Virus record (IMG/VR): IMGVR_UViG_3300021356_000135
Span: 1 to 26,984 of that record
Source: a virus
Length of the DNA: 26,984 bases
Reading direction: 5' to 3' (one strand)
Positions 2,542-25,630 of this stretch are shown here, one piece after another (position 1 is the first letter of the stretch; each line of letters starts with the position of its first letter). The notes beneath the pieces were generated by a model, which worked only from the letters and a program-made list of their open reading frames with translations, was not told the DNA's origin and did not search any database. Both the position numbers and the translations under genes were made by a program.

Positions 2542-3012
2542 GTGAGCAGGAAGCGACAACGAAGCAAGCAGAGGGGCATCTCCAATTTAAAGGCATTTGA
2601 GGCTATGGATTTAAGTTTTATGTCCGTTTCTACGGGCAAGATAAAGAAGCAAGTTCACGGGGTAGAATGGTCTTATAGGGTTCCGACAGCCCATGAAGAC
2701 GATGAATTCCAATCCATCCAACTCCGGATGATGACAGACGGCAAACCCCTTGCGGAAGCCTTCAACCGTACCTCCTCCAACAAGAAAGAAGACCCCAATA
2801 AAATTATTAACTTTTCTGCTCTTGCCCTCCGGAGGTTTGAGGCATTGGTTACCGGATGGAGTCCAGCCTTTACCGTAAATGGGAAGGAGTTGGAGTACAA
2901 CCAAGAGAATGTAAAGTTGATAGTGGAAGACCTCCCCAAACTGGCCCAACAGGTAGACAGTGCATTGTGGGCAGAGTACACGGAGTTTACAGAAGGGGAA
3001 CAGGGAAACTAG
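2542..3012 (+). CDS. Tail assembly chaperone, short form (lambda gpG-like)
   Basis: 156 residues in the zero frame, with a GTG start at 2542. A possible alternative start is the ATG at 2605, which has GAGG just before it. The protein is charged, with a basic N-terminus and a helical body, and ends in an acidic tail (EYTEFTEGEQGN). It lies between the tail tube and tape measure genes, the universal place for siphovirus tail assembly chaperones, which bind the tape measure before tube polymerisation. The last sense codons GGA AAC together with the preceding G form a -1 slippery heptamer immediately before the TAG, so a minority of ribosomes should make the longer fusion form. Confidence 0.82.
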   Translation: MSRKRQRSKQRGISNLKAFEAMDLSFMSVSTGKIKKQVHGVEWSYRVPTAHEDDEFQSIQLRMMTDGKPLAEAFNRTSSNKKEDPNKIINFSALALRRFEALVTGWSPAFTVNGKELEYNQENVKLIVEDLPKLAQQVDSALWAEYTEFTEGEQGN

Positions 3013-3413
3013 AGAATTGGATTAAAACCCAGACTGGGGACTTTTTCTTTACCGGACAGAGTCCGGAACATGGAGTGGATACAGAGACACCCTGTTTGTT
3101 GGGGTGGTGCTGTCAAGATGACGGTAATGTGTGGGATGAAGATGGAGTCCCCCCTCCTTGCGAGGTGTGCCCCCGTGCTGGGTTCCAGCTAACTTTTCAT
3201 AATGAGAGGTTGATTAGAGTCTGGAAGTTTTTGGACATGACGGGCCGGGACCGAATGTTTGACGAGGGTTTTCTACGAGAAGAGGCTGTTGAGGTTGCTT
3301 TGAATAGATACCGGATGAATTCAATTAGAAACTACGAAAACCTCCTATACCTAGACACCATGATTCTAGAACACCGGAGGAAAAACAAACCCAAGGAGAA
3401 AAAACAAAAATGA
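2542..3413 (+). CDS. Tail assembly chaperone, -1 frameshift fusion (gpGT-like)
   Basis: A second frame, without a start of its own that looks convincing, runs to 3413. It can be joined to the short chaperone by a -1 slip on G GGA AAC at 3003-3009, giving 156 + 134 = 290 residues. The added part has a cysteine-rich segment (CCQDDGN...CEVCPRAGF, four Cys in all), possibly metal-binding, then a charged helical C-terminus ending in KKNKPKEKKQK-like basic residues. In lambda the T domain of gpGT contacts the tube protein while G binds the tape measure; the same division of labour is inferred here. The reading frame before 3009 in this frame (from 2856) is a shadow of the G gene. Confidence 0.82.
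3003..3009 (+). other. -1 ribosomal frameshift slippery site GGGAAAC
   Basis: Read in the chaperone frame the bases are G GGA AAC followed by TAG, a perfect X XXY YYZ heptamer that differs from lambda's GGGAAAG in the last base. A Shine-Dalgarno-like AGAAGGGG lies just upstream (2991-2998). Downstream there are two small hairpins: CCC/GGG at 3028-3038 and a perfect CCGGAC-AGA-GTCCGG at 3052-3066. The second is further away than usual stimulators, so its role is uncertain. Confidence 0.85.
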
Positions 3414-3457: not shown

Positions 3458-6400
3458 ATGGCAACAGACACCCAACTAGAACTAGGGTTAGATATTAAGC
3501 GAATGCTAAAGGAGTTGGACAAACTCCAGAAGCGTTTTGAGAAGGAACTACCCCAAGCAATAGATAAGTCTGAAGATGCTATAGAGGACTTTGAGGATTC
3601 CGTTGACAAGTCCATGAAAGGGGCAACCCAGTCCACCAAGCAACTGGGTAGAGGCTTCCAGAACATGGGCAAACAACTGGACAAGATGGACCAGAAGTTT
3701 AAGTCAATGGAAAGCTCATTGGGAAGCCTAAAGAGGGGGTTCCGTGGGCTAACTACAGTGGTGGGCACCTTCATGGCTGGGTTTGCCGCTAAGTCTTTTG
3801 TCCAGTTTGGTGCCGATTACGAAAGGACAATAGGACAATTAAAAAGCATAATCTCCGGTTCCTCAAAGGATTTAGCCGGGGACATGATGGTCTTGCGGAA
3901 GGCCATTAGGGAAACTGGAGCAACCACCCACATTACAGCACAGGAAGCCGCAGAAGCTGCAAAAGCCCTTTCTGCATTGGGCATGAATGCAGAGGACACC
4001 GCAGGAAATTTGCAGTTGATGGTAGAGGCAAGTGCCGCATTGAGTGCCCCCATTGATGAAGTGGCCCGGATTGTCAAGAATCAGCAAAACATCTTCCGTA
4101 TTTCCTCCCGTGAAATTGCCAACACCCTTGTTGGTGCCTATCAGTCGAGTGCTGCAAATCTAGAAAAATTGGATGTAGCTTTCCGGAACGTTGCTAAAGA
4201 TGCAGCAGGGGCCGGGATGTCCTTTGCTCAAGTCACGGGTGCCCTTGGTTACCTAATAGACCGTGGTGAGTCTGCAATGTTGGCAGGAACCCGTCTAAGG
4301 GGGGTAATAGTACGTTTAGAAAAGCCCACAAATATAGCTAAAGAGCAGATGGAAAGGCTGGGGGTGTCTTTTGATAGTATCAAGGACGATGACATGCCCA
4401 CCCGATTTAAGAAGATAGCGGCAGCATTAAAGCAAGTGGGAAGTGCCACAGAACGGTCCCGGATTCTCTCCAATATGTTTGGAGCAGAAACAAAGGGGGT
4501 AGCCCAGACGATTATAGAAGGCTACATGGAAGGCACAGACGTAATTGACGGGATGGCTAAGAAGTTTGTAGAAGCTGGTGATGCTGCTGACGCTTACAAG
4601 AAGATTGTGGACGATGTCCAAGGGGCTATGGATAACCTCACCAGTGCGGTGCAGGACCGTTTACTGGAAGTGTGGAAAACCTTAGAACCGATTATTAAAA
4701 GAGTCCTCAACCAAGCCACAGACTTTATACGGTCCTTGACCAATGAGGACATATACAACTTCATGGAAACGGTGGGGGTTGGGCTAATCAAGGCCGGGAC
4801 AGCCTTCTACAACATCATAGCCAATGCAGTAAACGCAATCACAGGGTTTGTAAATTCTGGTGGGTTCCAAAAGGTCCTTGCAGTAGGGGCCAAGATTGTA
4901 AAAGTCACATTTGGGCAGACAGAGGTTTCAGAGATACGGGAGTTACGGGACGAGATTATCCCGGCATTGGAAGCACAAATAAAAGCAGATGAAAAGAACC
5001 TTGGGAAATTAGGAAACGGGATTATTTCCGCAATTCAAGACACTGCACAAAAGGGATTAGAAGGGATTGGGATTGGAGGAAGGGATGGGTTTAATCTGGG
5101 GATGATGACGGATGCCAGTGCTTACACCCAGTTGGAAAGAGCAAAGGAACGTCTAGCGGAGTTAATGAAAACCCACGGGAAGGTAGAGCAGGATTCCACC
5201 ATCATGCCTACGGTGGGATCAGACAGCACAGCAGACCTGTTAAGTACCTTCCAAAAGCACATTGCAGAGATGAGGAAGAACAACATTCTCATGAAGGGAA
5301 TGAACCCCTCAGATGCCAGCAACAAGTCACCGGGCCAAGCTAATGTGGATTATGGCACCAAGAGTGGGCTGGATGAGGCCGCAGAGGACGGGGAAGGGGA
5401 AGGCAAGGGTAAACTAAAAAAGGACAAGGACGGGGATTTTGTAGTCCCAGACAGCATTAAAAGTTTAATCCCAGACTTGCAAGCATTCAAAGCAATGCAT
5501 GAGGACGTACAAAAGCAAGTCATTGAGTCCATGATGGCTTTGAAGGGTGAGACAGAAAATGTATTAAGGTTGGATGCTGACAGACTAGCAGCACAACAGG
5601 TGATAGCCCAAGCAATGGCTATTCAAGCCGAACACTTCTCCAAACCTGCATTGATGCAAGCCCAGCTAGCAGAGAATGCGGAAGTCCTACAAAACATTTT
5701 TGAAGACACTGAAGACGTTCAAGACAGGTTTGTCCAGTTACTGGAAGTCCGGAGACAGTTAGAAAGCCAGATTGCAGGGGCAAAGAAGGCGGACACGGTG
5801 GAGTCCTTGAAACATGCCCAACTCCTTTATGGACAACTGGAAGGGGTGATAGCGATAACGGATGCCTACGAAAAGCAGATGGTGAGTGAGGCCAAGGCCA
5901 CATTGGAAGCAAAGAACAGGACAGCCTTTATGGATGCCCAAGTATCTTTGCTCCAGACAGTCCAAGACAAGATGGACAGCAACCTGTCATTTGCGGAGAA
6001 ATACAAGTTATTGAATGAGGCAAGCCAAGCCGTAGAGGAATTAGCCTTAGCCAATGCAGAGGGGATGACAGCAGAGATGAGGGCACAACTGGACAGTCTC
6101 CAGAAAGCCCTTGGTCTGGAAGAGAAGTTGTTAGGGATTAAGGTAAAGCAAACGGAGGAAGAGAAAAAGCAGCAAGCAGAGGCTAAGAAGGCCAACTCTA
6201 CAAAAGCCATTGAAGCAGGGATGAGGGCTTTGGGGATGAATGCCCCAGAGGGAGAGCAGTCTGGGGAATCCAAAGCAATGGTTGCTGGCATTGCTCAAAG
6301 TGGCCCCAATGCTTCCAGAGGGATGAACATTGTAAATTCTGCTACACCCCAAGAAGCTGCAATTAAGTTGGTCATGTCCAACGAGAAGGTAAAGGAAGGG

Positions 6401-9400
6401 CTGGACAAACTCTTTGGAGCAATCTTTAAGCTAGTAGACCCCTTACTGGACATGATTGGGCCAATGCTTGGCTCTGTAACAGAATTGGTTGAAGCATTTA
6501 AACCCCTTACACAAGCACTAAAACCCATTGGCAAGCTAGTTCAAGGGGCATTTATTAAAGTAATGAAGGCTCTGACAACAGCAATTAAACCCCTTGTCCA
6601 TGTCCTTGCTCAAGTTGTTAGTATTTTTGGGGCAATCTTTGGAGCAGGAGGTGGGGGTTCTGGTTCCTTTGGAGATGGGATTGAAGACTTAGAAGCGGCA
6701 CTAGCCTCTGTCCGGGGTGCCTTGGAGGAAATGAAGTTTGGGGACATGAACCCAGCCAGTGCAGTAGAGAAACTGGGAGAAGCACAGCAGAAATACGATG
6801 AACTAAGAAAGAAAGCCTTTGCAGGAGATGCAACCCAAGAAGACATAGAGAAGTTTGTAGATTTCTCCAAAACCTATTTGGAATTATCCAAGGACGTAAA
6901 CAAATCCAGTAGCAAGTACGTCAAGGACTTCAACAAGGTAAACAAAGACCTAAAGAGCATGGAGAGTGCCCTAGAGGGTGCCATAGGTGGAGGGGAAGAC
7001 GAGGGGGGAGGATTTGGTTTAGATATAGGGGCAATCTTAGAAAAACTCTTGGGATTTATTGGCAAACTGGCCCAAGCCTTTGTGGAAGCGGTTAAAGGTC
7101 TACTGGAGGGGGCATTTAATCTTCTTGCTTATATTGCTCAAGCAGTAATAGACAAAATTCGAGAAGCACTAAAGCCAGCATGGAACCTAGTTAAAGACTT
7201 GGCAAAGGCTGTCTGGGACAAGATTGTTGAGGCTTTAAAAGGGGCTTGGAACATTCTGGAACAACTAGCCCAGTTAGTTTGGACAGTGGTTAAAAGTTTC
7301 TTTGAAGGAACTTGGAATTTATTGGAAAGGTTGGGCCAGTGGGTTTGGGATGTGGTCCGTAAGTTCTTTGCTGGTTATTTAAGTTTGCTGACCAAGTTCT
7401 ACACCTTCATTTGGGAGAAGGTAAAAGAGTTCTTTGAAGGGACGGTTAACTTGCTCCAACAACTTGCCCAGTTTATCTGGACCACAGTAACCACTCTCTT
7501 CCAAGGTGCTGTCAATCTGCTTGCCCAGTTTGCCCAGTGGATTTGGGACAAGGTGGTTTCCTTCTTCCAAGGCTATCACAATCTGCTGACAAGGTTGGTG
7601 ACCACGATTTGGAACAAGGTGGTGGAGTTCTTTAAAGGCTACCACAATCTGCTAGTTAAGTTTTACACCTTCATTTGGGAAGTGACCAAAAAATTCTTCA
7701 CAGGAGCATTCAACCTTCTAGCCCAGTTAGGCCAGTTTATCTGGGGTGTGGTTCAACAGATGTTTAAAGGCGGATGGTCTTTAATCTCTCAAGCCATGCA
7801 GTTGTTGCAAGGCATATTGACCAAGGCATTTTCTGGAGGATATAGCCTATTTAATCAGATTAAGGACCGGATTCTTGGCTTTCTGTCCGGTGGTCGAAAC
7901 ATTATTCAAGAGATAATAAACAAGATTTTAAAAGCCCTTGGAATCAATGGACAGCAAGGAGAAATCCCCATCCTACCAAACCCGTTTCATGCCATTTTTG
8001 GAAGCAGGGGAGGACCCAAGCATTTCCTATCCATAAAGTACAAGTTTGGAGAAGGTGGGGACGTTCCAGAATTTGGAAGAGGTGGGGACACGATTTCCGG
8101 AGGGATGGCAAAAGGACCCTCCCACCAGAGTGGAATGTTGGGGATGACCAAGGCCGGGGCACCGTTTCTCTTTGAGGGTGGTGAATACATTGTAAACAAG
8201 AGAAGTTCCCAATTATTGGGGAATGATTTCTTAGCCAGAGCAAACAGTGTTAAATCTGGACAGCAGAAAAACAACTTTTTAAACAGTATTCTTTCCAAGG
8301 CTTGCCCGGATTGCATGAAGGGGGCACTCCCTCAGTTTGCAACTGGTGGCTCATTATATAGCCCATTATTTGGGGCATTAAATGATTTACCCTCTCCTCC
8401 ACCTACCACAACTGCACCCCCTTCCCAGTATGTTGCACCCTCCGGAGGTGGCTTTAATTGGCTTAATAGTGCCAGTGGAAACATTAACTTATTCAGTCTA
8501 GCCAACCCCCTCAAAGGAATTGCAGGGCCTAGAGGTGGTTGGTCTGGGAAACTCAGCTACGATTTAGCAAGGGGATATTTTAAATTAAATCAAAACCTAG
8601 TGTCCTTGGGTGTTGGCGGAACTCCTCCAAAGGATTATCTCCAGAGTGGACCCTACATTGACTTTGTGGACCAATTCTGGGGTAACGAGCATTCCGTTGA
8701 TTTGTTAAATGTTGCCAACCCCTTGCGACACATAGCAAACCAAGCAAGTGCCTTGTGCATGGGGGATGGTGGACTACTCCCAGAGTTTGCAATGGGTGGA
8801 AGAGTTCACCGGACAGGAAGCGAGTTTGATTTGCCGGAATATGGCTTAGGTAATTTTAATCCAGTAAAGATCCTTACAGACAGTGTAAGGGGGGTAACCA
8901 ATACTATCCAAAGTGGTGTGCAAGCGTTGACTAATGCAGTAAGCCCAGCATTAAACGGATTTTTGAAAGGGATTGGGGTTGACGATCTAACAGAATTTGC
9001 TCAAGGACTGGCGAACGGTTCTATTGATATTGTAGACACGTTGATTAAGGAGGGGGGTAACTGTCTCTCTGACCCAGTGAAGTGCGTTAAAGATTGGTTT
9101 GGAAAGGCAAGCGAGTTATGCAAAGACGCAATGGGTGCCCTTGCTCAAGCCGTAGGACCAGAACAGTTAAAAATGGGGCTGGATTTTAATAGCTTAGACT
9201 TCTGGAATGCCAAGGTAGACGCAAATTTTGGAGGGGATGTCCTCAAGTTACTCAATACCGGATTTTCAGCAGTAAGTTCAGTCTTCTCCGGATTCACGGG
9301 AGTTGAGAAAAAAGATTGGCGGAAAAATGCTGGGTTTGCTCCAAACAATGTTCCCGTTTCTCCCAAGAGTTCTTCCAGTATTACCCCAGAGGTTAGTCCA

Positions 9401-9859
9401 CAAAAGGAGGTTGGGGTAAGTCACCACCTAGACGGGCTTTTCATGAAATTCTTTGGAATGACGTTTGGAGAGTTTCAGCAAAAAATTGGGGGATTAAAAC
9501 TTTTTGGAAATGGTGGGCTGGTAACCGGGGCATCTCATGCCCGTGGAGGGATTCCAGCAGAGTTAGAGGGTGGGGAATTTGTGATTAGAAGGCAAGCGGC
9601 ACAGATGGCAGGATATGCCAATCTAGCCCAATTGAATGCATCCGGACAGATGACCAACGACAGGTCCACGGCAATTTTAGAAAGAATTGCCCAGAGGCTG
9701 GAGCAGCAACAAGCCCCACAGGTAACCGTCCATGTTTACACGGATTTAGAAGGGCAAGTCCAAGCAGGAATAAGCCATTTTAAAACGGAAATAAAAAACC
9801 GTGCAGACCGTATTCGTTCATCTAACCGGGAGTTCATCCCCATGTCTGCATTGGTCTAA
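3458..9859 (+). CDS. Tail tape measure protein (TP901 family)
   Basis: 2133 residues. Residues 1-90 are a charged coiled coil. Residues about 100-340 (FGADYERTIGQLKSIISGSS, TGATTHITAQEAAEAAKALS) match the TP901-type tape measure core. Long helical and coiled-coil regions follow. At about residues 1215-1478 there are twelve tandem 22-residue repeats with fixed Phe/Trp positions. The C-terminal third is glycine-rich and holds two copies of the tape-measure tail motif GPSHxxG...GGEYIVN / GASHARGG...GGEFVIR (about residues 1551-1580 and 2024-2045), with a proline-rich spacer (LPSPPPTTTAPP) between. It fills the tail tube, fixes tail length and is ejected at infection. By scaling with lambda's gene H product the tail should be about 0.3 micrometre. 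No clear ribosome site precedes the ATG. Confidence 0.95.
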   Translation: MATDTQLELGLDIKRMLKELDKLQKRFEKELPQAIDKSEDAIEDFEDSVDKSMKGATQSTKQLGRGFQNMGKQLDKMDQKFKSMESSLGSLKRGFRGLTTVVGTFMAGFAAKSFVQFGADYERTIGQLKSIISGSSKDLAGDMMVLRKAIRETGATTHITAQEAAEAAKALSALGMNAEDTAGNLQLMVEASAALSAPIDEVARIVKNQQNIFRISSREIANTLVGAYQSSAANLEKLDVAFRNVAKDAAGAGMSFAQVTGALGYLIDRGESAMLAGTRLRGVIVRLEKPTNIAKEQMERLGVSFDSIKDDDMPTRFKKIAAALKQVGSATERSRILSNMFGAETKGVAQTIIEGYMEGTDVIDGMAKKFVEAGDAADAYKKIVDDVQGAMDNLTSAVQDRLLEVWKTLEPIIKRVLNQATDFIRSLTNEDIYNFMETVGVGLIKAGTAFYNIIANAVNAITGFVNSGGFQKVLAVGAKIVKVTFGQTEVSEIRELRDEIIPALEAQIKADEKNLGKLGNGIISAIQDTAQKGLEGIGIGGRDGFNLGMMTDASAYTQLERAKERLAELMKTHGKVEQDSTIMPTVGSDSTADLLSTFQKHIAEMRKNNILMKGMNPSDASNKSPGQANVDYGTKSGLDEAAEDGEGEGKGKLKKDKDGDFVVPDSIKSLIPDLQAFKAMHEDVQKQVIESMMALKGETENVLRLDADRLAAQQVIAQAMAIQAEHFSKPALMQAQLAENAEVLQNIFEDTEDVQDRFVQLLEVRRQLESQIAGAKKADTVESLKHAQLLYGQLEGVIAITDAYEKQMVSEAKATLEAKNRTAFMDAQVSLLQTVQDKMDSNLSFAEKYKLLNEASQAVEELALANAEGMTAEMRAQLDSLQKALGLEEKLLGIKVKQTEEEKKQQAEAKKANSTKAIEAGMRALGMNAPEGEQSGESKAMVAGIAQSGPNASRGMNIVNSATPQEAAIKLVMSNEKVKEGLDKLFGAIFKLVDPLLDMIGPMLGSVTELVEAFKPLTQALKPIGKLVQGAFIKVMKALTTAIKPLVHVLAQVVSIFGAIFGAGGGGSGSFGDGIEDLEAALASVRGALEEMKFGDMNPASAVEKLGEAQQKYDELRKKAFAGDATQEDIEKFVDFSKTYLELSKDVNKSSSKYVKDFNKVNKDLKSMESALEGAIGGGEDEGGGFGLDIGAILEKLLGFIGKLAQAFVEAVKGLLEGAFNLLAYIAQAVIDKIREALKPAWNLVKDLAKAVWDKIVEALKGAWNILEQLAQLVWTVVKSFFEGTWNLLERLGQWVWDVVRKFFAGYLSLLTKFYTFIWEKVKEFFEGTVNLLQQLAQFIWTTVTTLFQGAVNLLAQFAQWIWDKVVSFFQGYHNLLTRLVTTIWNKVVEFFKGYHNLLVKFYTFIWEVTKKFFTGAFNLLAQLGQFIWGVVQQMFKGGWSLISQAMQLLQGILTKAFSGGYSLFNQIKDRILGFLSGGRNIIQEIINKILKALGINGQQGEIPILPNPFHAIFGSRGGPKHFLSIKYKFGEGGDVPEFGRGGDTISGGMAKGPSHQSGMLGMTKAGAPFLFEGGEYIVNKRSSQLLGNDFLARANSVKSGQQKNNFLNSILSKACPDCMKGALPQFATGGSLYSPLFGALNDLPSPPPTTTAPPSQYVAPSGGGFNWLNSASGNINLFSLANPLKGIAGPRGGWSGKLSYDLARGYFKLNQNLVSLGVGGTPPKDYLQSGPYIDFVDQFWGNEHSVDLLNVANPLRHIANQASALCMGDGGLLPEFAMGGRVHRTGSEFDLPEYGLGNFNPVKILTDSVRGVTNTIQSGVQALTNAVSPALNGFLKGIGVDDLTEFAQGLANGSIDIVDTLIKEGGNCLSDPVKCVKDWFGKASELCKDAMGALAQAVGPEQLKMGLDFNSLDFWNAKVDANFGGDVLKLLNTGFSAVSSVFSGFTGVEKKDWRKNAGFAPNNVPVSPKSSSSITPEVSPQKEVGVSHHLDGLFMKFFGMTFGEFQQKIGGLKLFGNGGLVTGASHARGGIPAELEGGEFVIRRQAAQMAGYANLAQLNASGQMTNDRSTAILERIAQRLEQQQAPQVTVHVYTDLEGQVQAGISHFKTEIKNRADRIRSSNREFIPMSALV
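7100..7891 (+). repeat. Twelve tandem 66-bp (22-residue) repeats inside the tape measure gene
   Basis: Units start every 66 bases from 7100 (7100, 7166, 7232 ... 7826). Each encodes a variant of FFxGxxNLLxxLxQFIWxxVxx: the double Phe, Gly4, the NLL core and a Trp near position 17 recur. DNA identity between units is low while the protein pattern is strong, so the repeats are old and kept by selection. Edge units (first two and last two) are more diverged. Aromatic repeats of fixed length are known in tape measure proteins, where Trp/Phe spacing is thought to match the tube's helical rise. Confidence 0.93.
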
Positions 9860-18542: not shown

Positions 18543-19088
18543 ATGGCAGAGCAAAGACTTTTAAACACCGTAAGGTCCCACGGACACCTTATTATTCCCA
18601 ACCTTGAAGAGGGCGAGGACTTTCCACCAACAGCCTATGATGGAGAATTGTTGATGAAGCAAGGCCAGTTGTGGAACTACGGCACAATGTCTGGAGTTCA
18701 GTCTTGGCACCCCATTACCCAGCCCAAAGCAACCTATGTCCACAACCAAGCAGTTGCATCAGAGACTTGGAGTATTACCCACGGACTAAACAATCAGTTT
18801 TTGATTGTGACTGTCTACAGCAACAACACCACGGATGGAAGCTATAGGCTGGTTGCGAATCCACCAGTGACTTTCCTTGATGACAATAATATTGAGATTC
18901 CTTTTTCTGACCCAGTAAGTGGTAGAGCCGTGCTATTGGCTCAAGGGGGTGCAGCAAGTTCTACTCAAGTGGTTGTTCCAAAAATTGAGGAATTACGGGC
19001 TGAAATTCAACAAGAAATGCTTGGTGGCATGAAGTCACAAACAACCACTCAATCCAACGGCAATTTGCGGATTAAATTGTTTAATTAA
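18543..19088 (+). CDS. Tail fibre-associated protein with HNLG-type domain
   Basis: 181 residues, with the same start context as the gene at 16985 (GGAGTTTTTAAAATGGC). The N-terminus (HLIIPNLEEGEDFPPTAYDG ELL...GQLWNYG) is a short beta cap seen in phage fibre-head proteins. Residues about 75-135 (ASETWSITHGLNNQFLIVTV ... FLDDNNIEIPFSDPVSGRAV) are the HNLG-type beta domain. The last 45 residues are a short helix (PKIEELRAEIQQEMLGGM) and a strand. No enzyme motif is present. Likely a fibre connector or receptor-binding subunit acting with the shaft and tip encoded on either side. Confidence 0.68.
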   Translation: MAEQRLLNTVRSHGHLIIPNLEEGEDFPPTAYDGELLMKQGQLWNYGTMSGVQSWHPITQPKATYVHNQAVASETWSITHGLNNQFLIVTVYSNNTTDGSYRLVANPPVTFLDDNNIEIPFSDPVSGRAVLLAQGGAASSTQVVVPKIEELRAEIQQEMLGGMKSQTTTQSNGNLRIKLFN

Positions 19089-19100
19089 GGAGTCAACAAA

Positions 19101-19652
19101 ATGGCAGCAGCACCAGCAGTAGAACTGGAACTAGATTATCTAGTTTGGAAAGACAAGAACGGCACGGAACGAGTCACTCCGGCACATACTTTTGCTAGCG
19201 GCACGATGATGCTATTCCAGCAGTCAACGGCTCCGGTCGGATGGACTAAATCCACAACACACAACAACAAGGCTTTACGGATAGTAAGTGGCTCTGTTTC
19301 AACTGGTGGAAATCACGCTTTTACAACGGCATTTGCTTCCAAAGGCGTTTCGGGTAGCGTCAGCACTAGCACTAGCACTAGCGTTTCTATCGGCAATTGG
19401 GGTTCATCAAACGCTCATTATATGCCAAGTCACCGTCACATTAAAAAGCACAGAGGTGGATATGGTGGCACCCAGCTTTCTGCTGGTACGGGGTGGGGGA
19501 CTGTACACCATCAATACACGGAATATACTGGGGGGAACGGATCACACAAACACTCTGCCTCTGCTTCTTCCTCTTCCTCTTCCTCTTTCAGAGGTTCTAA
19601 CATAGATATGCGAGTTCAATACGTTGATTTTATCATTGCACAAAAGGATTAA
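19101..19652 (+). CDS. Tail fibre tip protein, gp37/collar-like with HxH metal-binding motifs
   Basis: 183 residues with TAAGGAG as ribosome site overlapping the upstream stop. The segment FASGTMMLFQQSTAPVGWTK, then NKALRIVSG and TGG, is the classic tail collar/fibre-tip opening ('G...F.Q..APtGWtk...ALRv..G'). HxH motifs (SHRH with a nearby KKH, and GSHKH) match those that coordinate iron ions in the needle-like tip of T4 gp37. The end NIDMRVQYVDFIIAQKD matches the usual 'l.VqYvd.IIc.KD' terminus of such proteins. Two low-complexity Ser/Thr tracts lie between. Likely the receptor-contacting end of the fibre. Confidence 0.85.
   Translation: MAAAPAVELELDYLVWKDKNGTERVTPAHTFASGTMMLFQQSTAPVGWTKSTTHNNKALRIVSGSVSTGGNHAFTTAFASKGVSGSVSTSTSTSVSIGNWGSSNAHYMPSHRHIKKHRGGYGGTQLSAGTGWGTVHHQYTEYTGGNGSHKHSASASSSSSSSFRGSNIDMRVQYVDFIIAQKD
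19363..19380 (+). repeat. GCACTA x3 hexanucleotide repeat in the fibre-tip gene
   Basis: Three exact copies of GCACTA code for the alternating Ser-Thr stretch of the tip protein. Because the unit is six bases, slippage would add or remove whole dipeptides without breaking the frame. Confidence 0.7.
19567..19584 (+). repeat. CTTCCT x3 within a polypyrimidine tract of the fibre-tip gene
   Basis: Three exact CTTCCT units sit in a pyrimidine-only tract (19564-19589) that encodes a run of seven serines just before the last strand. The hexamer unit keeps the frame on slippage, so the linker length could vary between virions or strains. Confidence 0.7.
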
Positions 19653-19655
19653 AAA

Positions 19656-20234
19656 ATGTTTGAAATTACTTGGCTTGTTGTTCACGTTGATGAAGATGTA
19701 GTTACTATAAATCAAGCAGATGAAGAAGATGTATTTGTTCAAATAAATCAGAAATTTGACTTAGCCTTTCTTGGCGCAGACGTTTTACGGATTCAGTGGT
19801 CGGCTGGGCCAGAACCCAATTTCATACAAAAAATTGTGGAAATTGTAGATGAGGAAACTGAGGAGAAGACCAAAGAAGTTAGGGATTTCCCTCTTGAAAA
19901 ATTAACGGATATTCCAAACTGGGATAAGTTGCATCAGCTTATCGACACGACACTGAAAGAGGATATTCCACCGGAACCAACGCTTGCAGAAAAATTGGAC
20001 ATGTTACGAGGGGTACGGTCTGATTTACTGCAAGAGGCTGATATTACGATATTAAGGTTTTTAGAAAATGGGGAAGCTATTCCTCCGGAGTGGGCAAAAT
20101 ATCGGCAAGACCTCCGGAATCTTCCATCAGAGATTGAATCTGGAAAATTGCCAGAACCTACGGTGGTCAATAATGGTTCGGAGTACTTTCCGGATTTTGC
20201 TATCCAGTTTAACTCTTGGCCCGTAAAGCCATGA
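19656..20234 (+). CDS. Putative tail fibre assembly chaperone
   Basis: 192 residues directly after the fibre tip gene. Residues about 118-160 (MLRGVRSDLLQEADITILRF LENG then IPPEWAKYRQDLRNLP) carry the family pattern 'R..R..lL..tD......p..w..YRqaLRdlP' of phage tail assembly chaperone proteins. These small proteins usually follow the fibre gene whose folding they assist. The N-terminus (MFEITWLVVHVDEDVVTINQ) is a beta strand pair, and the middle is acidic. The end overlaps the next start (ATGA at 20231). Chaperone action on the tip protein is inferred from family and order. Confidence 0.75.
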   Translation: MFEITWLVVHVDEDVVTINQADEEDVFVQINQKFDLAFLGADVLRIQWSAGPEPNFIQKIVEIVDEETEEKTKEVRDFPLEKLTDIPNWDKLHQLIDTTLKEDIPPEPTLAEKLDMLRGVRSDLLQEADITILRFLENGEAIPPEWAKYRQDLRNLPSEIESGKLPEPTVVNNGSEYFPDFAIQFNSWPVKP

Positions 20235-20509
20235 AAATAAAACCCGAAGCAAGTTGCCCTTTGAATAATTTTAAAAAATGCAAAGGGCTAGAGTGTGCTT
20301 GGTTTATTCAAATCCGTGGACATAATCCAAACACCGGAGAAGAGATCGATGATTGGGGTTGTGCAATGGCATGGACCCCAATCCTCTTGATAGAAAACGC
20401 CCAACAGTCACGGCAAACGGGTGCAGCGGTTGAGTCATTCAGAAATGAAATGGTCAATGCACAGCAGCAAATTCAACATTCAGAATTGAGGAAAATTGAG
20501 GGACTTTGA
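20231..20509 (+). CDS. Small conserved Cys protein of phage (CPLNN type)
   Basis: 92 residues from the ATG at 20231, chosen because it overlaps the previous stop as ATGA; a TTG 15 bases upstream is possible but less likely. It has four cysteines in the first half (SCPLNNFKKCKGLECAW and WGCAMAW), which may bind a metal. A helical second half follows (LIENAQQSRQTGAAVESFRN). From memory, very similar short proteins are common near fibre or oxygenase genes of marine phages, with no known function. I give no function. The next gene starts inside its 3' end. Confidence 0.72.
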   Translation: MKIKPEASCPLNNFKKCKGLECAWFIQIRGHNPNTGEEIDDWGCAMAWTPILLIENAQQSRQTGAAVESFRNEMVNAQQQIQHSELRKIEGL

Positions 20510-20990
20510 GATTCCAATTCAAGATTTTGCCTATAAGTTCGCAATTAAGGAACATCAAGAAATAAAAGATGCTGCTCTGAACGCAATTGAGCAAATGGGG
20601 AAGTTTTCTTATTACTGCGAGGATCAGCGAATTTCTCACACCGATTGGCATTTGAATGTTTCCCATGTACGGGCGTATGCCGACATCGTTATGCCTGTTT
20701 TAATCAGCTACTTCCCACTAGAAGGCTTAGAAATAAAACAATTTTGGTTTCAGCAATATGAGGCTGGAGATTATCACGGCATTCATTCACATGATGACTG
20801 TAATTTCAGTTCCGTTTATTATTTAGAACTACCAGACAATTCGATAAAAACCAAATATCACGGGCAAGCGGAAATTGATATAAATGAAGGGGATTTTCTT
20901 ATCATGCCAGCACACATTAAACATCTTAGCCCATATGTAAACAGCGGAAGAAAGACGAGCATTGTGTTAAATTTAAATTTAAAAAGTTGA
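20496..20990 (+). CDS. Putative 2OG-Fe(II) oxygenase, first of two
   Basis: 164 residues from a TTG start at 20496 that is supported by GAGG five bases upstream; this start overlaps the previous gene by 14 bases. The core YHGIHSHDDCNFSSVYYLE gives the metal-ligand cluster (His97, His99, Asp101). A later INEGDFLIMPAHIKHLSPYV with His143, then Arg152 (GRKTSIVLNL), gives the distal His and the 2-oxoglutarate-binding Arg expected of the double-stranded beta-helix fold. Such enzymes hydroxylate protein or nucleic acid side chains using Fe(II), O2 and 2-oxoglutarate. The substrate is unknown; neighbouring fibre proteins are a possibility by context only. Confidence 0.75.
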   Translation: MRDFEIPIQDFAYKFAIKEHQEIKDAALNAIEQMGKFSYYCEDQRISHTDWHLNVSHVRAYADIVMPVLISYFPLEGLEIKQFWFQQYEAGDYHGIHSHDDCNFSSVYYLELPDNSIKTKYHGQAEIDINEGDFLIMPAHIKHLSPYVNSGRKTSIVLNLNLKS

Positions 20991-20991
20991 A

Positions 20992-21552
20992 ATGAAAATA
21001 CTTACTGAGGTTGTGGGGCAGCGTCAGTTCAAATATGTGATCCAAGAACTTACTGCCCCAAATTTTCCTTGGTACTATTTGCGAAGCACAGCATACCCAC
21101 CAGAAGCTAAAATTAGTTTTCACCAAGCAGCAGATGCTAGCTTTAGCCATATATTGCTAGAGAATGATTTTGAAAGCCCATTTTGTCAGATGTTTCTAGA
21201 TATGGTGTTGACCATATTTGACAATGCTAATGAGGATTTTGAAACAATTGGCAGACTTAGGTTAGGGCTGATTCCAAGGACTGCAAAGCCAATCACACAT
21301 TTGCCTCATGTGGATTATTACGAGGAACACAAAACAGCCTTAATTTGTTTGTCTGGAGACAGTGGCCCCACAGATTTCTACAAAGAAAAATATGTAGTAG
21401 GTAGTGACAAGGTTTCAGAAAAATTTACAAAAATGAAGTCTGTAAAACCTCAAGCAAACCAAGTGGTATTCTTTGATGGATTGATTTTTCATTCTTCCAC
21501 GACACCAACAACAGACGAACCAAGAATCATGCTAAATGTAAATTACAAATGA
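20992..21552 (+). CDS. Putative 2OG-Fe(II) oxygenase, second of two
   Basis: 186 residues starting one base after the first oxygenase stop. The iron ligands appear as His106-x-Asp108 (LPHVDYYEEH) and His167 (FFDGLIFHSSTTP). Arg178 (EPRIMLNVNY) is placed to bind 2-oxoglutarate. Sequence is clearly different from the first oxygenase, so the pair is not a recent duplication. It looks like the prolyl-4-hydroxylase-like set found in many marine phages. Both enzymes lie between fibre genes and the lysis block and should be expressed late. Substrate unknown. Confidence 0.78.
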   Translation: MKILTEVVGQRQFKYVIQELTAPNFPWYYLRSTAYPPEAKISFHQAADASFSHILLENDFESPFCQMFLDMVLTIFDNANEDFETIGRLRLGLIPRTAKPITHLPHVDYYEEHKTALICLSGDSGPTDFYKEKYVVGSDKVSEKFTKMKSVKPQANQVVFFDGLIFHSSTTPTTDEPRIMLNVNYK

Positions 21553-21622
21553 ATTCCCTTCTAAGTATGGTGTTATTGGCAACCACAAATTAGACTACCC
21601 ATCCGGTTTAATAAACCATTTT

Positions 21623-21859
21623 ATGTCCTTTTGTGGGACGGGTGTTAGGAATGAATTGATTTTAAAAGGGTTCCCAAATGCGGTAGCCACACAAACTGCT
21701 GTCCTTCAGTGTGCTTGTGTTATGGACAAGATACGGTTGTCTATGTCCTCTGACCGTTTTGTGGGCTTAACCCAAGAACAACAGAAAGACCTTTCTTTAC
21801 GGTTTGCGTATCAGTGTGCAGGAGTAAAAGAACCTGCACAAGAGGTGGACCCAATCTAA
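21623..21859 (+). CDS. Small Cys-containing protein with disturbed 5' end
   Basis: 78 residues from the ATG at 21623, which has no ribosome site. The frame stays open upstream to 21542 and reads like a protein (YGVIGNHKLDYPSGLINHF, then MSFCGTG). I recall small secreted or lipoprotein-like families with 'yP...f...C.......C.C..~~i......f..l', and FMSFC...LQCACVMDKIRL fits only if the upstream residues belong. No usual start codon exists in that upstream part. An ATG at 21549, overlapping the oxygenase stop (ATGA), is in another frame and opens MNSLLSMVLLATTN, which looks like a short signal-like segment. A missing base between would join the two. Function unknown. Confidence 0.55.
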   Translation: MSFCGTGVRNELILKGFPNAVATQTAVLQCACVMDKIRLSMSSDRFVGLTQEQQKDLSLRFAYQCAGVKEPAQEVDPI

Positions 21860-24530: not shown

Positions 24531-25145
24531 TTAGAGCAATTTCTTTATAGTATCTTCAAGAGTGATGTGGTCCCGATTCAAGTATCTCATGGTAGTGGAC
24601 AAGTCCTTGTGGCCCATGAGTTTCTGAACGTGGACAGGAGACACGGAAGAGTCCGCTAAGAGGTTGGTGGCAAAGGTGTGTCTGTATCCGTGAAGAGTCT
24701 TGACCCCTTCCCCTATTCCTAGTTTTTCAAAGACCCTTTTAAAAGCCAAAGACAGTCCAATACGAGTAGACCAGAAAGGTTCTTGAGTGCGTGGATCTTC
24801 TAGGTAATAAGTGGCTTGTTCTTGAAACTGGAGGAATTCCAAAAGTCTTGGGTGAATAGGTAGGGTTCTTTCTTCTCTACTTTTGACTTCATCCAGTCCG
24901 GAGGTAATGAGGATGGTTTGTCTTACTAAGTCAATCTGGTCCCATCTCATCCCCCTCAATTCACTTGCCCGTATGCCCGTGTAGCGGAGCATAAGGTGGG
25001 CACGGAAAAGCAACCTTCCCCGGAGGTCCAACAACGGTTCCAGATACTCCTCCATTGTGCCCATGTCTTCTAATGTGTAGGTCTTTGGGGCTTTGCGTGT
25101 GTAACGAATATAGGGCACCTTTAAACGTCTAGGCATTCTTCCCAA
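24531..25145 (-). CDS. int: Tyrosine integrase, C-terminal catalytic part (split gene)
   Basis: 204 residues from a TTG at 25145, but the frame is open to about 25175 and reads YFLKYLREL before it, so this is the rest of the upstream fragment rather than a separate gene. All catalytic residues of a tyrosine recombinase are present: Arg59 (TGIRASEL), Lys88, His152-x2-Arg155 (LHGYRH), His179 (LMGHKD) and Tyr188 (TMRYLN). The enzyme would recombine phage attP and host attB. The gene lies next to the candidate attP and reads toward it. As it stands the protein is split, so integration may be lost unless the frame break is an error or is bypassed. Confidence 0.85.
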   Translation of the reverse strand: MGRMPRRLKVPYIRYTRKAPKTYTLEDMGTMEEYLEPLLDLRGRLLFRAHLMLRYTGIRASELRGMRWDQIDLVRQTILITSGLDEVKSREERTLPIHPRLLEFLQFQEQATYYLEDPRTQEPFWSTRIGLSLAFKRVFEKLGIGEGVKTLHGYRHTFATNLLADSSVSPVHVQKLMGHKDLSTTMRYLNRDHITLEDTIKKLL

Positions 25146-25630
25146 TTCCCGTAGGTACTTGAGAAAATAGCTACATCACGCATTGCGGAATTTATGGAAG
25201 CACTGGCCCAGCCTTTCTTTTTAAATGTTTCCAGCACCATCGACAGGTGCTTGACCTCTAGTTGTTCTGGCTGGTAGTGTCCAAACTTATTGGCAAAGGT
25301 TTCCAGACTGTACCCATAATGCTGGTGTGTGCTGGTGGCCCTAGACCGTTTGACATGATCCATAAATTCATTTAGACAAGCACGGACGGTGGGGGAAGCA
25401 ATTACTTCATTCTTCTCTTTTATTCTGCTTTCTTCTTGGGAATACAACCGTTTTAAAATGTTGGTTCTTTCCATTTCAGAACGGGAAACAGTCCCCCGTT
25501 TTGTGTCCTTGAAGTCTAATTCATCTATTGGGATGAGGTCCCGTTTTAGACAAGTTTTCCCCTGTCTGTAAAACCTCCCGTAGTAGACTTTCCTCTTTTG
25601 GTCTTTCCCTATGTAGGTTTTGGGCCTCAT
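25121..25630 (-). CDS. int: Tyrosine integrase, N-terminal arm- and core-binding part (split gene)
   Basis: 169 residues from ATG at 25630. The first 35 residues (KVYYGRFYRQGKTCLKRDL) look like the small arm-binding domain. Residues about 85-155 (PTVRACLNEFMDHVKRSRAT ... INSAMRDVAIF) are the SAM-like core-binding domain. The frame leaves the integrase pattern after VAIF and ends with an unrelated tail (SSTYGNWEECLDV). Adding one T to the T4 run (A4 at 25164-25167 on the plus strand) makes VAIFLKYLRELGRM and continues into the catalytic part, giving one protein of 366 residues, a normal integrase length. Confidence 0.82.
   Translation of the reverse strand: MRPKTYIGKDQKRKVYYGRFYRQGKTCLKRDLIPIDELDFKDTKRGTVSRSEMERTNILKRLYSQEESRIKEKNEVIASPTVRACLNEFMDHVKRSRATSTHQHYGYSLETFANKFGHYQPEQLEVKHLSMVLETFKKKGWASASINSAMRDVAIFSSTYGNWEECLDV

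Follow-up and report, generated by a model that had tools for sequence, protein, structure and literature searches.

Why does a temperate phage place two different 2OG-Fe(II) oxygenases directly behind the genes of its tail fibre, and on what do these enzymes act? We explored this question on a 26,984-base IMG/VR record, referred to here in its entirety as the window, whose gene content is that of a temperate siphovirus, with a tape measure protein at 3458–9859, fibre genes at 13.7–19.7 kb and lysis genes at 21.9–24 kb. The temperate lifestyle follows from a repressor-like gene and an encoded tyrosine integrase. The latter is divided between two ORFs on the minus strand, overlapping in different frames (24531–25145 and 25121–25630), which comprise the catalytic PF00589 domain and the SAM-like N-terminal part and could reflect a frameshift, an assembly error or decay. 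A second overlapping pair, on the plus strand directly 5' of the tape measure gene (2542–3012 and 2856–3413), is arranged as programmed frameshift pairs usually are, its first member matching a tail assembly chaperone (phrog_313).

The genes of interest are all encoded on the plus strand. A fibre-region protein (phrog_21918, 18543–19088) is followed by a fibre tip of 183 aa (TIP, 19101–19652), the tail fibre assembly chaperone (19656–20234), CYS1, a protein of 92 aa with four invariant cysteines (20231–20509), oxygenase A (PF13759/phrog_81, 20496–20990, with a TTG start and GAGG upstream) and oxygenase B (phrog_274, 20992–21552). The initial annotation had placed a fibre chaperone upstream of the cassette, which is borne out by matches to PF16778 (E=1.7e-5, just under the gathering score) and to the PHROG tail fibre assembly family phrog_4912 (E=8e-8). 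Chaperone stop and CYS1 start codon overlap as ATGA, the start of oxygenase A overlaps the 3' end of CYS1, and oxygenase B begins 1 nt after oxygenase A, so that chaperone, CYS1, A and B form a coupled series on the same strand as the tail and lysis genes. Promoter and terminator signals inside the cassette did not exceed the level of shuffled sequence.

Oxygenase A matches PF13759 with 30.6 bits against a cut-off of 27 and phrog_81 with E=8e-19, while oxygenase B matches phrog_274 with E=3e-31 and, weakly, DUF6445/PF13640. As initially proposed, the two are not recent duplicates, since they lack BLAST similarity to each other and can be aligned by profile only, at the metal-site region (hhalign 94.9%). 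The AF2 models (pLDDT 92.9 for A and 90.4 for B) are both predicted as a double-stranded beta-helix, with a VIA-align Z of 16.2 to 2rg4 for A, and of 16.3 to 3dkq (148 residues, 2.4 A) and 15.3 to PiuC for B. A and B belong to different families, which by these models share the double-stranded beta-helix of prolyl-hydroxylase/PiuC-type enzymes. In A, residues H94, H97, H99, H143 and K153 are invariant over 26 aligned sequences. Its putative metal site reads HxH...H (H97, H99, H143) in all 26 members and not HxD/E, the usual carboxylate being replaced by histidine; H99 aligns with D108 of B in the profile alignment, and the same HxH is found in the solved homologues 2rg4 and 3bvc. In B, the HxD...H triad of H106, D108 and H167 is invariant in 24 sequences, and R178, at the position of the basic 2OG ligand, is invariant in a 6-sequence alignment. 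Because the metal-site residues are kept and the folds are confidently predicted, we regard A and B as probably real, active-site-bearing oxygenases, with the three-histidine site of A as a caveat.

The fold itself does not tell the substrate. Its matches include the protein hydroxylases PHD2, P. putida P4H and PBCV-1 collagen P4H, and the likeness reaches AlkB (for B, Z about 15) and small-molecule enzymes, too. Repair or modification of nucleic acids, either AlkB-like or as implied by the label 'DNA endonuclease V' that relatives of B carry, would be in line with these AlkB matches. In T4 DenV, an entirely helical glycosylase, the N-terminal threonine acts as the nucleophile. Oxygenase B starts with MKIL and is predicted as a beta-helix with HxD...H, which rules it out as a DNA endonuclease V, an identity that fold and motif speak against for A as well; the label of phrog_274 as a whole appears to be wrong, going by this predicted fold. 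Since the late fibre context likewise argues against it, we consider a role in nucleic-acid metabolism very improbable.

The genes of this locus are exchanged between close relatives. In three IMG/VR contigs (L088, L089 and L090), the sequence agrees with the window at about 95% identity until position 18994, within the 3' end of the phrog_21918 gene, and at 97% from 21559 onwards, and the intervening segment of the window, about 18995–21558, is replaced by other genes. Tip, chaperone, CYS1, A and B have thus moved as one segment, and the fibre segment differs between otherwise near-identical phages, as in metaviromic islands for host recognition. The initial annotation had delimited the cassette to 20231–21859 and counted four genes, coupled or nearly coupled. 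CYS1, A and B are present there and are coupled to the chaperone, but the real unit starts further left, with tip and chaperone, and the fourth gene, a small ORF with four cysteines (21623–21859), belongs to the conserved backbone beyond the right edge (21559–21859) and lies outside the cassette. This small gene starts inside the 97%-identical backbone and directly follows CYS1 in L088–L090, where it is intact and encodes 103 aa (L088 7926–8237), whereas the window copy (21549–21859) is frameshifted near its start and truncated; we found no relatives of its product outside this lineage.

In place of the window's genes, L088–L090 carry the order tip–chaperone–oxygenase C–tip–CYS1, in which the chaperone is 37% and CYS1 84% identical to those of the window, while oxygenase C (P0006, PF13640, phrog_61) is unrelated to A and B. 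The more distant relative L188 displays the order tip–tip–chaperone–oxygenase C'–CYS1, with C' sharing 39% identity with C. Each of the three tip alleles encountered in the lineage is therefore accompanied by a 2OG oxygenase, and since A and B are non-orthologous to the oxygenases of the relatives, the enzyme class is kept while the enzyme differs. The exact four-gene order, whose conservation the initial annotation had named as a check, was encountered neither in the relatives nor in the CYS1 loci described below, and single-sequence scans of IMG/VR returned no relatives of B or of the chaperone beyond this lineage.

The assignment of the tip is based on the match of its family profile to the solved tail fibre 9qgo (E=4e-10) and on two HxH motifs, H111–H113 and H149–H151, which are invariant across the family. 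CYS1, with its invariant cysteines at positions 9, 17, 22 and 44 and an also invariant TGAAVESFRNEMV stretch, has no family match in Pfam or PHROG and is widespread, with at least 596 confirmed stretches in an IMG/VR scan. We kept 80 of these loci for neighbourhood analysis. In nearly all of them CYS1 directly or almost directly follows a two-HxH fibre tip, and the next gene usually encodes a protein of about 100 aa (C0), chaperone-like by position. The pair of tip and CYS1 is also found in 13 of 15 loci from bacterial genomes. By this position, CYS1 can be regarded as a partner of the fibre tip. It is a nearly invariable neighbour of HxH-type tips, in phages of aquatic origin as well as in prophages of Proteobacteria and desulfovibrios (L009–L087, L171–L184). 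Small single-domain cupins of about 90 aa are common beside CYS1 and the chaperone-like gene, with 14 found in distinct loci (e.g. L011 2534–2800, L056 and L078).

Across these loci, an oxygenase is located within 3 kb of CYS1 or the tip in 13 of 66 distinct cases. The density amounts to 16 oxygenase genes per 360 kb within this distance; beyond it, 3 were counted in 328 kb (binomial p=0.004; p=0.02 with the window and L008 left aside). It should be noted that the loci come from contigs of metagenome assemblies, often short and related to one another, and that the test took them as independent once identical CYS1 sequences, and nothing else, had been removed; since they are partly redundant, the p-values are indicative only. 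Whole-record searches agree with this count and add further members; the PF13640 genome search gives minimum counts, since it overlooked the oxygenase already identified in L008. The enzymes derive from several families, recur in this way at the tips of phages that are unrelated to one another, and either separate tip and CYS1 or follow CYS1 or the chaperone. Apart from them, Pfam searches on representatives revealed mostly structural and lysis proteins near CYS1, non-lysis enzymes being restricted to single matches to a glycosyltransferase, a phosphoesterase and a homing-endonuclease-like protein. The association of oxygenases with the exchangeable receptor-binding module is thus well supported.

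At the same time, about 80% of the tip/CYS1 loci have no recognised oxygenase, and the profiles used detected none in the 15 loci from bacterial genomes, from which it follows that the tips do not need one. This feeds the notion that the oxygenases are mere passengers, accumulating in the fibre region as a recombination hot spot with no functional tie to the tip. Such enzymes are very common in marine phages, both in the phage sequences surveyed here and in the literature (PMC9602691), and the low GC content of A and B (0.37–0.38, compared to 0.456 for the window) suggests recent import. However, passengers would not be expected to keep their catalytic residues intact, to be retained as an enzyme class through non-orthologous replacement in three of three alleles, or to leave other enzyme classes so scarce at the same spot, and we therefore deem this explanation unlikely.

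Candidate substrates of the collagen type were rejected, as neither Gly-X-Y repeats nor proline enrichment were found in the tips beside oxygenases; the few collagen-like ORFs observed all belong to loci whose tip module has no oxygenase. Oxygenase–fibre gene fusions were not seen either. A single long oxygenase ORF was met, in phage S-T4, where the oxygenase is joined to a domain of the 'ferrochelatase' family. That family, phrog_2954, itself displays an HxD...H pattern (RRHKDR...EHW; L164 12298–12978, L006 6656–7816) and is, from this motif and from the fusion to a 2OG oxygenase domain, probably a mislabelled oxygenase. Since family labels such as DNA endonuclease V and, probably, ferrochelatase hide further oxygenases, the number of phage oxygenases is underestimated.

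The families of A and B are themselves not fibre-specific, since their members in T4-like cyanophages (Kyanoviridae) and Pelagibacter myophages have head, replication and metabolic genes as neighbours and are often separated from each other. Among the IMG/VR loci found with oxygenase A, the tip or CYS1 occurs in 0 of 80, and other fibre or virion genes lie within 4 kb in 38 of 79. The link to fibres put forward in the initial annotation therefore has to be restricted: it holds for the enzyme class, which recurs in tip modules, but not for the A and B families in particular, whose relatives in Kyanoviridae occur away from fibres and often apart, the very outcome that the initial annotation had named as speaking against its idea. 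Aquatic phage contigs commonly contain tandem arrays of 2–9 divergent 2OG oxygenases. Within the sampled loci, an A-type directly adjoins a B-type gene in 26 cases, including the A–B order of the window (L095), and podophage-like contigs carry arrays of A, B and D oxygenases after Gly-rich fibre genes, with a gap of 22–57 nt in six contigs, all these labels being approximate because profiles bleed across the oxygenase superfamily. The podophage-like arrays hold up to nine oxygenases and stop before a virion structural gene. Head-to-tail runs of six to nine divergent oxygenases are present at L095 7154–10412, L097 7986–13877 and L164 7929–14150. From these arrays and adjacencies, tandem oxygenase sets are a pattern that recurs, in many but not all cases next to fibre genes. 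Two-oxygenase sets had initially been described as being of no known function in phages, which still applies to their function, but such sets are not unprecedented (PMC9599517, PMC9602691, PMC3909814).

We propose, tentatively and with a confidence somewhat short of even, that A and B are protein hydroxylases which serve the exchangeable receptor-binding module. We favour this reading for three reasons: enzyme and tip are swapped together, the class persists although the individual enzyme differs, and protein hydroxylases are among the nearest solved enzymes. In such a model, the module consists of tip, assembly chaperone, CYS1 and one or more oxygenases; A and B would be made late, together with the tip, and would hydroxylate side chains of a module protein, i.e. 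the tip, an upstream fibre protein or CYS1, before or during assembly. The modification could adjust how the protein folds, how stable it is, how it binds metal at the HxH sites or how it contacts the receptor, and the oxygenase would move along with the tip as enzyme and substrate have to match. A further-reaching version, in which tip-matched oxygenases hydroxylate the receptor-binding tip or its metal site, and in which this modification layer is swapped along with host specificity across unrelated phages, is possible yet more doubtful.

The same linkage of tip and oxygenases would be accounted for almost as well if the enzymes acted on a component of the host surface, such as the receptor or a precursor of LPS or capsule, during lysogeny or infection, leading to receptor masking or superinfection exclusion. 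Enzymes and tip would then travel together as both concern the same receptor. Conversion genes usually sit between fibre and lysis genes, the very interval occupied here, and the phage, encoding an integrase, is temperate. A and B are, however, read as members of a late operon of tightly coupled genes on the strand of the tail and lysis genes, inspection by eye revealed no evident hydrophobic N-terminus in either of them, and glycan-synthesis genes do not accompany them, so that we consider action on the host surface rather unlikely, if worth keeping in mind beside hydroxylation of a module protein.

A metabolic role, in which the enzymes would use up 2-oxoglutarate or oxidise a small molecule and so reprogramme nitrogen or energy metabolism of the host, has been proposed for cyanophages in the form of 2OG signalling (PMC3037559) and is assumed in PMC9602691. 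The former proposal rests on NtcA and cyanobacterial nitrogen signalling, whereas the phage of the window is not a T4-like cyanophage, and the exchange with fibre tips as well as the presence of multiple divergent enzymes would be left unexplained. Both the metabolic and the DNA-repair reading fit less well, and we regard the metabolic one as improbable here. This matters beyond the single locus, since 2OG-Fe(II) oxygenases, which rank with the commonest enzymes of marine phages that lack an explanation, tend to be classified as auxiliary metabolic genes. The swapping of non-orthologous oxygenases along with the fibre tip speaks instead for a substrate in the virion or a receptor. The phage of the window, as a compact temperate system, makes it testable whether phages modify the protein with which they grip their host.

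In the open-access literature searched, we found no experimental test of a fibre substrate for phage oxygenases, and the use that viruses make of prolyl 4-hydroxylase is termed cryptic in a study from the Baltic Sea (PMC9301287). Earlier publications already cover oxygenase arrays as well as the occurrence of such enzymes in host-recognition islands. HTVC023P-type pelagiphages (PMC9599517) and cyanophage S-SCSM1 with its 24 oxygenase genes (PMC9602691) likewise carry several non-orthologous oxygenases close together; as far as the available parts of these two reports extend, the enzymes are treated there as auxiliary metabolic genes, a link to an exchangeable tip is not drawn, and no oxygenase is named among the S-SCSM1 virion proteins. 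Comparison with the PBCV-1 collagen prolyl 4-hydroxylase (5c5t) gives a similar fold for oxygenase A (Z 14.5), and viral and bacterial P4Hs are profile matches to oxygenase C of the relatives, but the tips neighbouring the enzymes here are without collagen-like sequence. Oxygenase B belongs to phrog_274 (denV) of T4-like cyanophages, or DUF6445. Oxygenase A is by sequence a member of the phrog_81/PF13759 family of cyanophages and pelagiphages and shares its invariant H/H/H/H/K pattern, but there the genes reside among replication and metabolic genes or in arrays, whereas here the gene is part of a tip cassette in a temperate siphovirus. A further parallel is offered by metaviromic islands, for which Mizuno et al. 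2014 (PMC3909814), in the portion available to us, do not describe a gene-level swap of a tip together with non-orthologous oxygenases, but list Fe(II)-dependent oxygenases (8/390) under host recognition, within hypervariable segments that contain such enzymes just as the segment studied here does.
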